Below, piece after piece: positions 16,871-24,911 of a stretch of 57,713 bases of DNA. The DNA lies in assembly GCA_012728975.1 (NCBI GenBank), contig JAAYDZ010000036.1, positions 1 to 57,713 of the forward strand, written 5' to 3'. The position numbers were made by a program, and so were the translations under genes. This DNA is from Bacteroidales bacterium (GTDB taxonomy: Bacteria; Bacteroidota; Bacteroidia; Bacteroidales; UBA932). Under the pieces are notes generated by a model. That model did no database searches and was not told the origin of the DNA. It worked only from the letters and a program-made list of their open reading frames with translations. Position 1 is the stretch's first letter, and each line of letters opens with the position of its first letter.

Positions 16871-18175
16871 TTATTTACATATCATAATTTCCAAAATCAT
16901 CTCATCTGTACTCTGCATGCCTATAGAGCCGATTTTACCGAGATTGGCTATGGTTTTTTCGATATCCTCCTCTATGATGCCGTCGTTGGAAGATATGCAG
17001 ATACCATCGAGCGCCAGCACCGCGGATTGCAGCGCACTGGCTACTCCTGAGGCCACTTTTAGGGCACATCCTACCTTGGCTCCGTCGCATACCATTCCGG
17101 TGATATTGCCTATCATGTTTTTTATGGCAGCACACATCTGCTCATAACCCCCCTTGCGCAGATAGACGATGCCGCAGGCTGAGCCTGTAGAGGCAACCAC
17201 ACATCCGCAGAGAGCTGAGAGTCTGCCCAAATGCCCTTTGATGTGGATAGCTACCAGGTGGCTGATCACCAAAGCTCTCGCCAGATCTTCATGATTAGAC
17301 TTCAATTTTTCTGCAATAGCGATAACGGGAACCGTGGCGGTAATGCCCTGGTTGCCGCTGCCGGAGTTGCTCATAGCAGGAAGAGTACTGCCTGCCATCC
17401 TCGCATCGGAGGCTGCTGCAGTATAAGCCATGGCATAAGTGAGATAGGTATCCCCATACACATCTTTGTTGACAGGTGCGAGCAGTGTTCTGCCCACCTG
17501 TAGGCCATATTTGTTTCGAAGCCCTTCATCCACCAGCGCCTTGTTTAGTGTAACGGATTCCATTATAAACTCCAACTCTTCAAGAGGTGTCCGAGTGGCA
17601 AAGTCAAGTATTTGCTCAATAGTGATTTTACGCGCAAAATCGGGTTCAATCCCATTACCGGTGGGATCTTCAGAGTTGCTGTTTTCTATGCTTTTGATGA
17701 TTATACCATCTAGTTCTTCATGCACTATCGAGTCATGATTACCGCTTATAATTGTGACTGCCTTATGAGAGCCTTGCTCCTCTGAAGAGCAAGTTTCAGC
17801 ATATACATAGAGTTTCTCCGAAGTCTCTGCAAGCGATATGGCCACCTTTCTGGTTGATACCATCTCACGCGCTTTGGAAACGCTCTTATCAGTCACATCT
17901 TTGAGTACTTCGAGACGATACTTGGATTTACCGCAGGTGCAACCCAGGGCCGCAGCAATATGTAGTCCCACCGTGTCGGTGCCCGGGATTCCTACTCCCA
18001 TGCCATTCTTGAGTATGTTGTTACTGACCTGAACATTGATGTATTCAGGTTCTACAGAAATGCTCCTTAGAAGTTCACAACTGCGGGCCACTGCAAGGGC
18101 TACCGCTATGGGTTCGGTGCATCCCAGAGCCGGTTTAACCTCCTGTTTGAGAAGTGCTATGATTTTGTTTTTCAT
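16871..18175 (-). CDS. UPF0597 / L-cysteine desulfidase (CyuA-type) family enzyme
   Basis: An iron-sulfur enzyme of the serine dehydratase alpha/CyuA superfamily, whose characterised members break L-cysteine into hydrogen sulfide, ammonia and pyruvate. Typical features: KQEVKPALGCTEPIAVALA at the N-terminus with the conserved cysteine, GTDTVGLHIAAALG, SNSGSGNQGITATVPV near residue 275 and further cysteines (SALCGCVVASTGSACG, MVCDGAKVGCALK) that would hold the 4Fe-4S cluster. I use the ATG at 18175; a GTG 11 codons earlier lies inside a terminator hairpin. Other possible activity: serine or another amino acid dehydration. Confidence 0.8.
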   Translation of the reverse strand: MKNKIIALLKQEVKPALGCTEPIAVALAVARSCELLRSISVEPEYINVQVSNNILKNGMGVGIPGTDTVGLHIAAALGCTCGKSKYRLEVLKDVTDKSVSKAREMVSTRKVAISLAETSEKLYVYAETCSSEEQGSHKAVTIISGNHDSIVHEELDGIIIKSIENSNSEDPTGNGIEPDFARKITIEQILDFATRTPLEELEFIMESVTLNKALVDEGLRNKYGLQVGRTLLAPVNKDVYGDTYLTYAMAYTAAASDARMAGSTLPAMSNSGSGNQGITATVPVIAIAEKLKSNHEDLARALVISHLVAIHIKGHLGRLSALCGCVVASTGSACGIVYLRKGGYEQMCAAIKNMIGNITGMVCDGAKVGCALKVASGVASALQSAVLALDGICISSNDGIIEEDIEKTIANLGKIGSIGMQSTDEMILEIMICK

Positions 18176-18184
18176 ATCCTTGAT

Positions 18185-18211
18185 AAAAAGGGGCGACTTT
18201 GCGGCCACCCC
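18185..18211 (-). terminator. Terminator or attenuator between the SIS gene and the desulfidase gene
   Basis: On the minus strand GGGGTGGC (18211-18204) pairs with GTCGCCCC (18197-18190) with two wobbles over a 6-base loop, followed by TTTTT (18189-18185). It is only ten bases before the ATG of the next gene, so readthrough would be needed if the two genes are an operon. Confidence 0.6.
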
Positions 18212-21494: not shown

Positions 21495-22658
21495 TTAGTT
21501 ACGCAGGGAGGCAATTTCATTTACGGCATTGATGGCGGCAATGATCTCTTCTTCCGTGGTAAAGGCACCTATACTCATACGAACTGTTCCGTGATTGTTG
21601 ATGGTACCGATACCTTCGTGTACTTTGGGTGCACACTGCAGACCGATACGAACTGCAATGTTGTAGTCCACATCCAGCATGGTGCCGACATCGCTGGAAT
21701 CGAAGTTATTGATATTGAACGAGAGTACCGGATTGTGGTTTTCAGCACTTTTGCAGCAATAGAGCTTAACAGCCGGATTCTTGCGCAGGCCATCCACCAG
21801 GATGTTCCACAATTCCATTTCACGTCTGTGAATGTTCATTATTCCCTGTTCGGTAATCCATTTTACACCGGCATGGAGACCTGCCACGCCCAAGATGTTG
21901 AGGGTGCCATATTCCAAACGATAGGGATATTCTTCCAAGTGTCCCGGATAAGCAGAACGGACGCCGGTACCGCCGGCACGGGTTTGGTTGATTTCGACTC
22001 CTTCGCGTACGTATGAACCACCGATTCCTGTCGGCCCCATCAGGCATTTGTGACCTGTAAAGCAATATACGTCGATGTTGCTGGCTTGCATATCCAAATC
22101 TACAGCACCTGCACCCTGGCTCCCGTCTACAACGAAAAGGATACCTTTTTTGCGACAGATTGCTCCTATCTCCGTCAACGGTTGAATGGTACCTACTACA
22201 TTGGAACAGTGAGTAACAATCACAAGTTTAGTGTTCGGACGGATCGCCTTTTCGATATCCTCCGGATGCACATAACCATCCTCATCAAAGGGCACATAGG
22301 TAACATCGATTGTTCCTGCTTGTTCGTGAACATAAAGTGGCCGCAAAACGGAGTTGTGTTCCAACATTGTTGTAACGACATGGGTCCCTTTTTCGACTAA
22401 ACCGTTGATGATCAGGTTGAGTGAATCAGTGGCGTTGTAACTGAAGGTAAGTCGGTTGTAGTCCTCGCCACCGTTAAAAAGGCGGGTCAACATTTTGCGG
22501 GTGGATGTTACCATATCTTCGGCTTCCAAAGCGGCATCAAAGCCCGAACGTCCCGGACTTACTCCTTTGGAACAATAAAACGAGTGCATAAACTCGTATA
22601 CACTATCGGGCTTCGGAAAACTTGTGGCCGAATTGTCCAAATAAATCAATTTGCTCAT
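21495..22658 (-). CDS. Class V aminotransferase, cysteine-desulfurase-like
   Basis: A 387-residue PLP enzyme of the cysteine desulfurase/selenocysteine lyase group (EF2568-like subfamily). The N-terminus YLDNSATSFPKPDSV is characteristic; the PLP lysine is in CFTGHKCLMGPTG near residue 210 and the loop cysteine that would carry the persulfide is in VRIGLQCAPKVHEGIG near 340. It is the last gene of a four-gene run with dsrC, a cytochrome b and an HdrD-like protein, 18 bases after the last. In that place it could load sulfur from cysteine onto DsrC. No IscU or SufU scaffold is nearby, which argues against a housekeeping iron-sulfur role. Confidence 0.82.
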   Translation of the reverse strand: MSKLIYLDNSATSFPKPDSVYEFMHSFYCSKGVSPGRSGFDAALEAEDMVTSTRKMLTRLFNGGEDYNRLTFSYNATDSLNLIINGLVEKGTHVVTTMLEHNSVLRPLYVHEQAGTIDVTYVPFDEDGYVHPEDIEKAIRPNTKLVIVTHCSNVVGTIQPLTEIGAICRKKGILFVVDGSQGAGAVDLDMQASNIDVYCFTGHKCLMGPTGIGGSYVREGVEINQTRAGGTGVRSAYPGHLEEYPYRLEYGTLNILGVAGLHAGVKWITEQGIMNIHRREMELWNILVDGLRKNPAVKLYCCKSAENHNPVLSFNINNFDSSDVGTMLDVDYNIAVRIGLQCAPKVHEGIGTINNHGTVRMSIGAFTTEEEIIAAINAVNEIASLRN

Positions 22659-22676
22659 GTTGTATTGTAATTATAA

Positions 22677-23969
22677 TTATAATATTAATGCGTTTGCTAC
22701 AATTTCTGCAACGGTCATGATCTTTACATTCAATTTGTAGGTGTGATTCAATTGCAACAACTGGTCGACACAGTTGTGACAGGGGGTAATTACAATCTTG
22801 GCGCCGCTCTTGCGAATTTGATCGGCTTTGATCTTGCCTATTCCGAGTCGGCGTTCATTATACTCACTCATAGCCAACTGTCCACCTCCGCCTCCGCAAC
22901 AATGGTTGTCGTTACCGTATGGATCCATTTCTATTATACTGCTGCACGATGCGTGCAACACATAGCGAAGGGTCTTAAACAAGCCTCCATTGCGTATCAA
23001 GTTACAGGGATCATGAATGGTAACCGGTTCGCTGTTGAGACTTTTATCCAAACGAATCAGTCCTGAATCGATGTACTCTTTGATCAGTTCCACGGCTGTT
23101 ATCATATCGAATTCGTAGGAATGTCCCAAATAATTGGGTCCTTCCCAACGGTTAGCGTAGGATCCGTGTCCACATTCTCCCAAAATCAAACGTTTTCCCT
23201 TTAAACGAAGTACCTCATCGTGGAGGTTACGGGCAATCAAGGTTGCTTCAGCAGTATTTCCGTTGAAATAACCGTAGTTGGTTACATCGTAGTATTTGGA
23301 AGAAAGTGTCCAGCTTTCTTGAGCAGCATAGAAAATTTTAGCCATTGCCTTAATAGAGAGCGGAAAAAACTTAGGTTCGCGCGGATTGAGGGTATAGAAG
23401 ACATTGCGATCCGATTCGTCCAGTGGAATACGAGCATTTTCGTCTTCAACTTCATCTTGCAGTTCTTCTTCCATCCATTCGATCGTATCCGTATATTCTT
23501 CGACGGGAATGGCCATATTGTTGCCGGTCTGTACTGCGGCATCCACCGTGGACTGCAATGAGGCCGGAACCATACCCATCTCTGCCAGCATCTCCCGGCC
23601 TTTATGGACGAGATAGGAGATATCTACTCCGATGGAGCAATGGGTGACGCAGCGGCCACACATGGTGCAGGATCCGAAAAGCAGGTCTACCATCTCTTCC
23701 GCCGTCTCTTCATTCAAGGGGCGGGCATTGACCAATTTAGGCGCATGTTTACCTAAAAAGGTGTTATAACGTTTATATATGGAGGCCACAATATCCACTT
23801 TGACAGCGGGAATATACTTCGCTTCGTGGAAGGTGTCATAATACATACAACTGGTTGCGCAAAGACCGCATCGAACACACGAATTCAGATGAGTGCGTAA
23901 TTTACTATCCGAGGTATCGGCCAAAAGGGCCAGCGCCTTTTCTCGTTTTACGGGATCAATCGGTTTCAT
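22677..23969 (-). CDS. HdrD/DsrK-like iron-sulfur oxidoreductase subunit
   Basis: A 430-residue cytoplasmic protein with two N-terminal 4Fe-4S cluster motifs (Cys31, 34, 37, 41 and Cys101, 104, 107, 111) and a C-terminal CCG domain (HCCGGGGGQLAMSEYNERR, then PCHNC). The CCG domain is the part of heterodisulfide reductase HdrD and of sulfate-reducer DsrK that holds the noncubane 4Fe-4S catalytic centre acting on disulfides. The first CCG repeat is degenerate (GECGHGSY, DPCNLIRNGG). It is 6 bases from a cytochrome b gene, giving an HdrDE/DsrMK-like pair. The expected substrate is a protein disulfide or trisulfide, here DsrC; the direction of electron flow cannot be told. Confidence 0.8.
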   Translation of the reverse strand: MKPIDPVKREKALALLADTSDSKLRTHLNSCVRCGLCATSCMYYDTFHEAKYIPAVKVDIVASIYKRYNTFLGKHAPKLVNARPLNEETAEEMVDLLFGSCTMCGRCVTHCSIGVDISYLVHKGREMLAEMGMVPASLQSTVDAAVQTGNNMAIPVEEYTDTIEWMEEELQDEVEDENARIPLDESDRNVFYTLNPREPKFFPLSIKAMAKIFYAAQESWTLSSKYYDVTNYGYFNGNTAEATLIARNLHDEVLRLKGKRLILGECGHGSYANRWEGPNYLGHSYEFDMITAVELIKEYIDSGLIRLDKSLNSEPVTIHDPCNLIRNGGLFKTLRYVLHASCSSIIEMDPYGNDNHCCGGGGGQLAMSEYNERRLGIGKIKADQIRKSGAKIVITPCHNCVDQLLQLNHTYKLNVKIMTVAEIVANALIL

Positions 23970-23974
23970 AGCGT

Positions 23975-24610
23975 TTAATGTTCAGGCCATGTGCCTCGGC
24001 GACCATAAAAATAACCGAGGTGTAAACGGGCAAAAAAGAAATAGAGAATGTGACGTGTTTTGCCGAGCGGAAACCACACCAGAAACAAAACGGATATGAT
24101 AAAGTAAACTATTTCAATGGCAGGCAGATGGGGGAATGCTATAAAAAGTGCCGTTATAGCTTGAAATATGGTCGTTAAACCGTTGGAAATGTAGTCGTCT
24201 GGGTTGGAAAAAGAGCGCAATTCCTGCTTGACAATACGTTTAATTAAAACTCCCAAACCGCAAAGTGTCGAAATTAGCAGACAACCTCCCAGTATCCATC
24301 CCAAAAGTTCGGGCATTTTCCAACCTATCCAAATATTGATAAGCGAAAAGATCAACAGAAGCAGGGATAAAAAGGTCCCTAAATGATAAATGATCCCTGC
24401 GGTGTAAGTCGGAAGATGGAGGTAGGCCGATTCTTTATGTTGTGGCATCATGGAATTGATGTAAGCATAACGAATGCCGGCCGATGTCTTGCCTTGCGTT
24501 TTAGCCTTATCTTTGGGCAACCCAAAACTTATGAGGCGAATAAAATGGCCAAAGAATATGCCGAAACATATTACTGAGGCCACCCATGCTAAAATATGAT
24601 ACCATTCCAT
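23975..24610 (-). CDS. HdrE/DsrM/NarI-like membrane cytochrome b
   Basis: An integral membrane protein of about 211 residues with five hydrophobic segments: EWYHILAWVASVICFG, LHLPTYTAGIIYHLG running into LLLLIFSLINIW, WILGGCLLISTLCG, TTIFQAITALFIAFP, and VYFIISVLFLVWFPLGK. The histidines in the first two and last segments are placed as in the haem-b ligands of nitrate reductase gamma-type cytochromes. With the adjacent HdrD-like protein it would pass electrons between quinone and a cytoplasmic thiol site. A second ATG at 24628 overlaps dsrC; I use 24610, which leaves a short gap. Confidence 0.75.
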   Translation of the reverse strand: MEWYHILAWVASVICFGIFFGHFIRLISFGLPKDKAKTQGKTSAGIRYAYINSMMPQHKESAYLHLPTYTAGIIYHLGTFLSLLLLIFSLINIWIGWKMPELLGWILGGCLLISTLCGLGVLIKRIVKQELRSFSNPDDYISNGLTTIFQAITALFIAFPHLPAIEIVYFIISVLFLVWFPLGKTRHILYFFFARLHLGYFYGRRGTWPEH

Positions 24611-24614
24611 AGCA

Positions 24615-24911
24615 CTATACACAACCATCAGGTTTGGGCAATCCGGCTACACGACAAGCGCCACGGGCAGGTCCCAAGGGGAACAATTCATAAATTTCTT
24701 TTAATTTCAATCCGGTGGATTTGCAGATTTTGCGAACCATCGGGGCATTACCATTTTCCAGATAGTGTTCACGTATTACGTCAATTACTTTCCAGTGATC
24801 TTCTGTCAATTCGCTGATTCCGTCTTCTTGGGCAAAGGTTTCTGCCACGGTTTTACTCCAAATGTCCGGATCCTTCAAGAATCCGTCTCCATCAACTTCG
24901 TATTGTGCCAT
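24615..24911 (-). CDS. dsrC: DsrC/TusE family sulfur-carrier protein
   Basis: A 98-residue sulfur carrier. The C-terminal arm carries both redox cysteines, Cys86 and Cys97, in CRVAGLPKPDGCV with ten residues between, the arrangement of true DsrC that can form an intramolecular disulfide or trisulfide; TusE of tRNA thiolation has only the last. The core motifs DGFLKDPDIWS, LTEDHWKVIDVIREHY and GARGAC-like LGPARGACR agree. I use the ATG at 24911; a GTG eleven codons earlier is less likely. No dsrAB, tusBCD or sulfite reductase gene is in the window. The next gene downstream is an HdrE-like cytochrome b, its probable redox partner. Confidence 0.88.
   Translation of the reverse strand: MAQYEVDGDGFLKDPDIWSKTVAETFAQEDGISELTEDHWKVIDVIREHYLENGNAPMVRKICKSTGLKLKEIYELFPLGPARGACRVAGLPKPDGCV

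Follow-up and report, generated by a model that had tools for sequence, protein, structure and literature searches.

The window analysed here, that is, positions 1 to 57,713 of contig JAAYDZ010000036.1 of a Bacteroidales bacterium (assembly GCA_012728975.1; 1.83 Mb in 76 contigs, 90.55% complete), carries an operon of four genes, in which a two-cysteine sulfur carrier of the DsrC/TusE family is followed by a membrane cytochrome b, a CCG iron-sulfur protein and a cysteine desulfurase. This operon is conserved and co-inherited, its catalytic residues are intact, and no siroheme sulfite reductase was found in the genomes that bear it. We consider it somewhat probable that the module is a quinol-linked sulfur relay, fed by cysteine and working without a sulfite reductase. 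The parts of this system are known, while their combination is new and widely conserved.

All four genes are located on the minus strand: dsrC (24911-24615; 98 amino acids from the ATG), the gene of a DsrM/HmcE/TmcC-like cytochrome b (24610-23975; 211 amino acids), that of a DsrK/TmcB/HmcF-like CCG protein (23969-22677; 430 amino acids) and csd, encoding a cysteine desulfurase of the TIGR01977 group (22658-21495; 387 amino acids). The gaps between them are 4, 5, and 18 nucleotides long, and csd is followed by a terminator-like hairpin (21464-21422, minus strand; 20-pair stem, -32.2 kcal/mol, z -6.15), placed between csd and a convergent peptidase gene; we therefore read the four genes as one operon. 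Since the totals of our scans are not above chance (5 terminator-like sites versus 3.6 expected by chance, and 6 promoter-like sites versus 8.0, none above chance), it is only the strength of the csd hairpin itself that counts as evidence here, and no promoter is indicated.

The product of dsrC belongs to the DsrC/TusE family, which is confirmed by its passing both curated cut-offs, of PF04358 (124 bits; cut-off 24.9) and of TIGR03342 (108 bits; cut-off 53.5). Its AlphaFold2 (AF2) model, with a predicted local distance difference test score (pLDDT) of 91, matches the sulfite reductase-bound DsrC of Desulfovibrio vulgaris (2v4j_C) with a template modelling (TM) score of 0.91. The initial annotation had pointed to Cys86 and Cys97 of this protein, and both are indeed present: the former, CysB, lies in the C-terminal arm (24654..24656, minus strand) and the latter, CysA, is the penultimate residue (24621..24623, minus strand). 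Being 11 residues apart, they represent both CysB and CysA of true DsrC, as opposed to TusE, which has only the penultimate cysteine. The two residues are invariant in all 78 copies of at least 130 bits aligned from the loci examined, a set that contains six duplicates; the same holds for a third cysteine, Cys63 (24723..24725, minus strand; helix 59-66 of the AF2 model), whose invariance is new here. Position 63 is occupied by Ser and Thr in two solved DsrC and by Ser and Val in two other two-cysteine DsrC (L235 and L246); as three DsrC-like copies devoid of the penultimate cysteine (L215, L216, and L227) have Cys at this position too, Cys63 is typical of the module, but not exclusive to it. 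In the single-cysteine DsrC of Bacteroidales, the type to which all four matches next below 108 bits belong, all 8 copies looked at have Ser or Thr in place of CysB and Gly at position 63. This DsrC type (L022, L023, L024, L025, and L171-L174) belongs to a different operon, which in most of these loci comprises genes for a flavoprotein, a protein of approximately 225 amino acids, DsrC and a DsrE-like protein (names given by eye). Neither DsrK nor Csd stands beside the single-cysteine DsrC operon in the loci compared.

The membrane pair had initially been described as HdrE/HdrD-like, which was right as to its kind and imprecise as to its family; by the family models it is nearer to TmcBC/HmcEF than to DsrMK. 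The CCG protein scores 289 bits with TmcB, 276 with HmcF and 210 with DsrK, all under the equivalog cut-offs (400 for DsrK); the cytochrome b, for which no Pfam family was matched, has its best NCBIfam matches with HmcE (26.5 bits; cut-off 275) and TmcC (26.1 bits; cut-off 240), both below the cut-offs. As no equivalog cut-off is reached, "DsrM" and "DsrK" are used below as loose names denoting likeness, not family assignment. The CCG protein is of the HdrD/DsrK type, having two four-cysteine ferredoxin motifs, the C...CCG...CxxC pattern and an HdrB-like fold. Pfam finds one CCG domain in it, plus Fer4; no cysteine of either CxxCxxCxxxC motif or of the CCG part varies across the 88 aligned copies of at least 540 bits (86-88 with a letter at the respective positions). 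Its AF2 model (pLDDT 87) resembles EtfD and, for a portion of the chain, HdrB (E 4e-6 to 2.3e-4, TM by query 0.41-0.43 for the HdrB chains). As for the cytochrome b, in 84 aligned copies His76 and His187 are retained in 83 of the 83 that have a letter there, His65 in 77 of 83 and His197 in 54 of 82, and one heme is likely to be present throughout and a second in many copies. Six duplicate loci enter all the residue counts given here, and those for the two proteins of the pair also draw on some loci that do not belong to the module.

The fourth gene had been predicted to encode a cysteine desulfurase-like enzyme with its loop cysteine in place, and this was borne out: the protein passes the TIGR01977 cut-off (427 bits versus 377), and Lys204, His101, and loop Cys342 are present in every one of the 76 copies aligned, each scoring 450 bits or more. 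We take Lys204 to be the lysine that binds pyridoxal phosphate (PLP), and His101 and Cys342 likewise to have the roles familiar in such enzymes. Judged by family scores and paralogues, and not by a search for selenium genes such as SelD, it is very improbable that this PLP enzyme is instead a selenocysteine lyase of a selenium pathway. The SclA model does give it 320 bits, but the cut-off of 525 is missed. Moreover, five module genomes (G165, G224, G246, G252, and G342) possess a second, weaker paralogue (303-356 bits), accompanied in all of them except G224 by a TusA-domain match (48-75 bits) at most 0.15 kb away; in three genomes this match falls on a frame of 207-210 amino acids near the paralogue, presumably of the YedF type. 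Such a neighbourhood suggests that the selenium role may be filled by another gene.

The initial annotation had also proposed that the four-gene order be looked for in relatives, where it proved to be conserved: dsrC occurs in 5 of the 37 genomes of the genus, the window's genome included, and the four-gene order in all 5, as well as across families and phyla. The window's genome shares its flanks with G016 and G005, while in G035 and G025 a RecQ-like gene (named by eye) adjoins the cassette instead. In the tree of DsrK and Csd these two sets are not directly grouped (the intervening nodes have supports of 0.72 and 0.92), so the genus may have acquired the cassette more than once.

Within the order, represented by a sample of 393 Bacteroidales genomes, DsrC of any type occurs in 122. 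With "strong" matches defined by 108 bits for DsrC, 375 for DsrK and 585 for Csd (thresholds chosen after the lists had been seen), DsrC is found in 45 genomes, DsrK in 44 and Csd in 45, G184 being counted as Csd-positive from two half-length pieces below 585 bits. At least one of the three is present in 46 genomes of 24 families, and all three in 43 genomes of 23 families; the one-sided Fisher p values of the co-occurrence range from 8e-54 to 1e-57 and ignore kinship. Among the incomplete sets, G353 lacks csd and its contig stops inside dsrK, and the sole gene of the three in G416 is csd, located at a contig end. The four genes lie together on one contig in 33 of the 46 genomes, including G307, where csd contains a stop, and G146, where dsrK is in two pieces; apart from the genomes with separated genes considered below, the cassettes of the others are cut by contig ends.

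For a view past the order, the CCG protein was used as a query against named genomes; the best 80 loci include records of five other phyla in which all or most of the cassette is present. Of these 80 loci, 22 are from Bacteroidales/Bacteroidetes, 14 of them showing all four genes and one (L194) having the cassette cut by a contig end. In 14 of the other 58 the CCG protein has an adjoining csd: L193 (Phycisphaerae), L197, L202, and L204 (Acidobacteria), L198-L200 (Aminicenantes), L203 (Holophagales), L207 (Terriglobia), L209 (uncultured), L210 (Holophagaceae), L212 (Zixiibacteriota), L213 (CSSED10-310) and L214 (Krumholzibacteriia). Twelve of these 14 have dsrC; the contigs of L210 and L214 begin inside dsrM, and no dsrM was scored in L213. 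The remaining 44 loci have no adjacent strong csd (L201 and L206 being among those cut by contig ends), and most of them carry a more distant DsrK. Removal of six known duplicates leaves 57 loci that contain dsrC, dsrK, and csd; of these, 43 keep the order dsrC-dsrM-dsrK-csd, including L202, csd is reversed in 11, and it lies upstream in three (L145, L212, and L213). The distance matrices of the proteins correlate in all five pairs tested, with r of 0.82-0.90 over 52 loci and 0.57-0.81 within the 43 Bacteroidales loci, each value exceeding those of 1000 out of 1000 permutations. The copy of L193 (Phycisphaerae SM23_30) nests among Bacteroidales in the DsrK and Csd tree with a support of 0.95, which suggests a transfer between phyla or a binning error. 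Chance clustering of the four genes is ruled out by their linkage in two flank contexts within the genus, by the co-occurrence and by the presence of the same cassette in other phyla.

No fusion of DsrC with Csd was seen among the best matches per locus. Two frames, L216:4854-6617 (Chloroflexi) and L217:3496-5145 (Dehalococcoidales), encode DsrK-DsrC fusions whose DsrC domain is devoid of the arm cysteines, and in G386:C277:2772-3401 two DsrC-domain matches stand side by side in one open frame of 269 amino acids. Such DsrK-DsrC fusions indicate that sulfur loading is not a prerequisite for DsrK to pair with a DsrC fold and, together with several loci possessing the pair without csd, would fit a different role, in which DsrC and the pair serve the quinone pool as a general thiol-disulfide redox hub, or process polysulfide that has been imported, with Csd as a mere neighbour from sulfur homeostasis. 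We regard this as improbable, given that a strong csd is present in 44 of the 45 genomes with a strong dsrC, even where the genes are unlinked.

The absence of a sulfite reductase, noted initially for the window, extends to the genome: PF01077, which we take to cover DsrAB, assimilatory Sir and AsrC, has no match in it, nor in the 62 other genomes with the module or a part of it (AsrA and AsrB were not searched for). Occurrence with DsrAB is regarded as a mark of true DsrC; the DsrC of the module is accompanied by PF01077 in 0 of 63 genomes. This set includes 13 genomes reached through named loci; a completeness of 90% or more is flagged for 43, no figure is available for 13, and the control was positive in 11 of 14 genomes. 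A hidden sulfite reductase, as far as PF01077 covers such enzymes, was rejected on this result. However, PF01077 is rare in the order as a whole (26 of 393 genomes), so its absence from the module genomes (0 of 46 versus 26 of 347 others; one-sided p 0.035, kinship not corrected) is only weakly beyond expectation: it removes a partner, but is not strong proof of mutual exclusion. As regards other phyla, a metagenome study reports Asr in CSSED10-310, Krumholzibacteriota and others at Zodletone (PMC9040765); no PF01077 was found in the module genomes of L213 (CSSED10-310) and L214 (Krumholzibacteriia).

The search for tusBCD, also suggested by the initial annotation, gave a partial answer, since neither PF02635 (the DsrE/TusCD type) nor TusA was found in the window's genome (90.55% complete) and TusB was not searched for; these would be the other members of a Tus relay. 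TusA occurs in only 34 of the 63 module genomes, which rules out a required TusA step. The same results bear on the possibility that the system runs in reverse, i.e., that reduced DsrC is oxidised, its electrons pass to the quinone pool, and Csd is the source of sulfane sulfur that is then oxidised or assimilated. DsrMK takes part in reductive as well as oxidative pathways (PMC11406059), and three module genomes (G236, G105, and G342) carry TusA and a nearby DsrE-like protein, two of them with an HdrA-like protein (by eye). Nevertheless, no DsrAB that could oxidise sulfur was found by PF01077 in the 63 genomes, and no DsrE-type or TusA protein in the window's genome, and we think this direction quite unlikely.

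A stronger competitor, though in our opinion still rather unlikely, is a biosynthetic relay similar to IscS-Tus-TusE of Escherichia coli, in which DsrC would pass sulfur to an unspecified acceptor (for tRNA thiolation, a cofactor or Fe-S clusters) and the membrane pair would only reset oxidised DsrC. The Tus relay follows the same logic, a DsrC homologue being supplied by a cysteine desulfurase, as outlined in a 2012 paper (PMC3397948). Besides, the window's genome contains a separate desulfurase of the SufS family (478 bits versus 475), which makes the Csd of the module look dedicated, and G109 keeps dsrC and csd without a strong DsrK. On the other hand, the distribution is patchy (5 of 37 genomes of the genus), which would be odd for a core modification, and no acceptor enzyme stands out, because, a small five-cysteine protein aside, none of the listed neighbour clusters occurs in more than five families. 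Furthermore, the second DsrC cysteine was reported to occur only with DsrAB and to be almost always replaced otherwise, the exceptions named in the 2012 paper being Methylococcaceae, Marinobacter, and Lawsonia (PMC3397948); in the module both arm cysteines, CysB among them, are invariant despite the fact that no sulfite reductase was found.

The cysteine-fed, quinol-linked relay, which we favour, could be accomplished as follows. The desulfurase would take sulfur from L-cysteine, leaving alanine, and carry it as a persulfide on loop Cys342, from which it would be passed to the penultimate Cys97 of DsrC. Cys86, perhaps assisted by the invariant Cys63, would then attack the Cys97 persulfide, so that either sulfide leaves and a Cys86-Cys97 disulfide is formed, or a trisulfide is held. 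Finally, the cytochrome b/CCG pair would re-reduce DsrC with electrons from menaquinol. In total, cysteine and menaquinol would yield alanine, H2S, and menaquinone, so that electrons are disposed of independently of a sulfite reductase. The initial idea that cysteine sulfur is loaded on DsrC stands in part: neither of the two findings named at the outset as refuting it was obtained, since the linkage is conserved and PF01077 was not found, whereas persulfide transfer from Csd to DsrC, coupling to quinol and the direction of electrons are what we infer. The proposal joins two precedents. According to the 2012 paper, E. coli IscS with cysteine persulfurates DsrC of Allochromatium vinosum in vitro, a reaction abolished by mutation of the penultimate cysteine, and DsrMKJOP presumably regenerates the DsrC thiols (PMC3397948); a 2023 phylogenomic study states that DsrC trisulfide is reduced by DsrMK(JOP) and that some organisms have DsrMK only (PMC10504309). 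As to the quinone, UbiA prenyltransferase is found in 62 of the 63 module genomes, in 61 of them over the cut-off (none in G435, a weak match in G037). The UbiA copy of the window's genome passes the general model TIGR01475 and resembles MqnP below the cut-off, and approximately 5 kb from it there is a weak aminofutalosine-deaminase-like frame, truncated where the stretch examined ends, which makes menaquinone synthesis by the futalosine route plausible in this organism. DsrMKJOP has reportedly been named a terminal reductase.

Several observations weigh against this relay. In the order, G109 (95% complete) has adjacent dsrC and csd and no strong DsrK, which implies that the membrane pair is not always needed; in G037, G156, and G254 (family f2) dsrC-dsrM, dsrK, and csd, although all present, lie on separate stretches, and in G399 (also f2), G158, G337, and G400 (family f4) csd is present elsewhere in the genome. 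Among the best 80 loci, L178 keeps dsrC-dsrM-dsrK, but csd is missing from the following 5 kb; dsrK stands alone in five loci of Bacteroidales (L183, L185, L186, L192, and L231); and, in the flanks examined, L191 has no dsrC and only a part of dsrM, while L205, L208, and L211 have a close pair with neither dsrC nor csd. As to the cytochrome b, the strict conservation of only His76 and His187 contrasts with DsrM, characterised as a di-heme protein (PMC8076601). The energetics is a further difficulty: reduction of a low-potential disulfide by menaquinol may be uphill.

In its fullest form, the scenario would be a previously undescribed anaerobic respiration with cysteine as the terminal electron acceptor, in which DsrC is charged by a dedicated desulfurase, Csd, and the release of H2S is driven by a cytochrome b/CCG complex that oxidises menaquinol, the cassette being distributed in Bacteroidales and at least five other phyla, sometimes moving between them, and including the three-cysteine DsrC and a new five-cysteine accessory protein. 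We put this forward tentatively and with more doubt than belief.

Among the known systems, DsrC and DsrMK(JOP) of sulfate and sulfite reducers resemble the module in having a two-cysteine DsrC of the same fold and a membrane cytochrome b with a CCG protein predicted to re-reduce it; the module differs in the lack of PF01077 (63 of 63 genomes), the presence of csd in the operon, the invariant Cys63 and the pair being nearer to TmcBC/HmcEF. With IscS-TusA-TusBCD-TusE of E. coli it shares a cysteine desulfurase feeding a carrier of the DsrC family (PMC3397948), and differs from it in the membrane redox pair attached and in the lack of PF02635 and TusA in the window's genome. The Tmc and Hmc complexes provide the best family models for both proteins of the pair, although the scores are far below the equivalog cut-offs; no cytochrome c was recognised among the listed recurrent neighbour clusters (no model search for cytochrome c was made). 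Finally, HdrDE of methanogens consists of a cytochrome b and a catalytic CCG protein acting against a membrane electron carrier. The CCG protein of the module has an HdrB-like fold, but only one CCG domain by Pfam, and its substrate would be a protein disulfide rather than CoM-S-S-CoB.

The gene of the five-cysteine protein, of approximately 85 amino acids, immediately precedes dsrC, with the same orientation, in 30 loci (e.g., L117:6834-7097), two of the 30 being duplicates, and was found in 21 genomes of 15 families in the first clustering. Its consensus is CpN...C...C...CkR...CPDFVlPD; it has no match in Pfam or NCBIfam, and its PHROGs match (E 0.073) points to no convincing family. It may be a metal-binding or sulfur-handling accessory, possibly a fifth component of the module. 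This protein is absent from the window, the rest of the genome not having been searched for it. TusA and DsrE-like proteins occur near the module in L127, L139, and L145, with an HdrA-like protein of approximately 916 amino acids in L127 and L139 (by eye). In the window, a protein with the SDH_alpha domain (PF03313) is encoded at 16871-18208 on the minus strand, approximately 3.3 kb downstream of csd, and is kept in the same flank in G016 and G005; the PF03313 family includes cysteine desulfidases.

No description of the module was found by full-text search of a literature collection that lacks most subscription papers. Within the basal DsrK clade of the 2023 study seven bacterial assemblies are noted as being without DsrAB, and so is basal DsrM of Chloroflexi; the strings "Bacteroid" and "cysteine desulfurase" do not occur in the main text of that study (PMC10504309). 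Surveys relying on dsrAB or asr would miss the module, and those in which dsrC is counted as a gene of sulfur and taurine metabolism (PMC9016944) could misread it. The module also offers a simple natural setting in which to study the work of DsrC and a DsrMK-like pair where no sulfite reductase takes part. If our interpretation is true, part of the H2S from anaerobic Bacteroidales could be respiratory and cysteine-fed.

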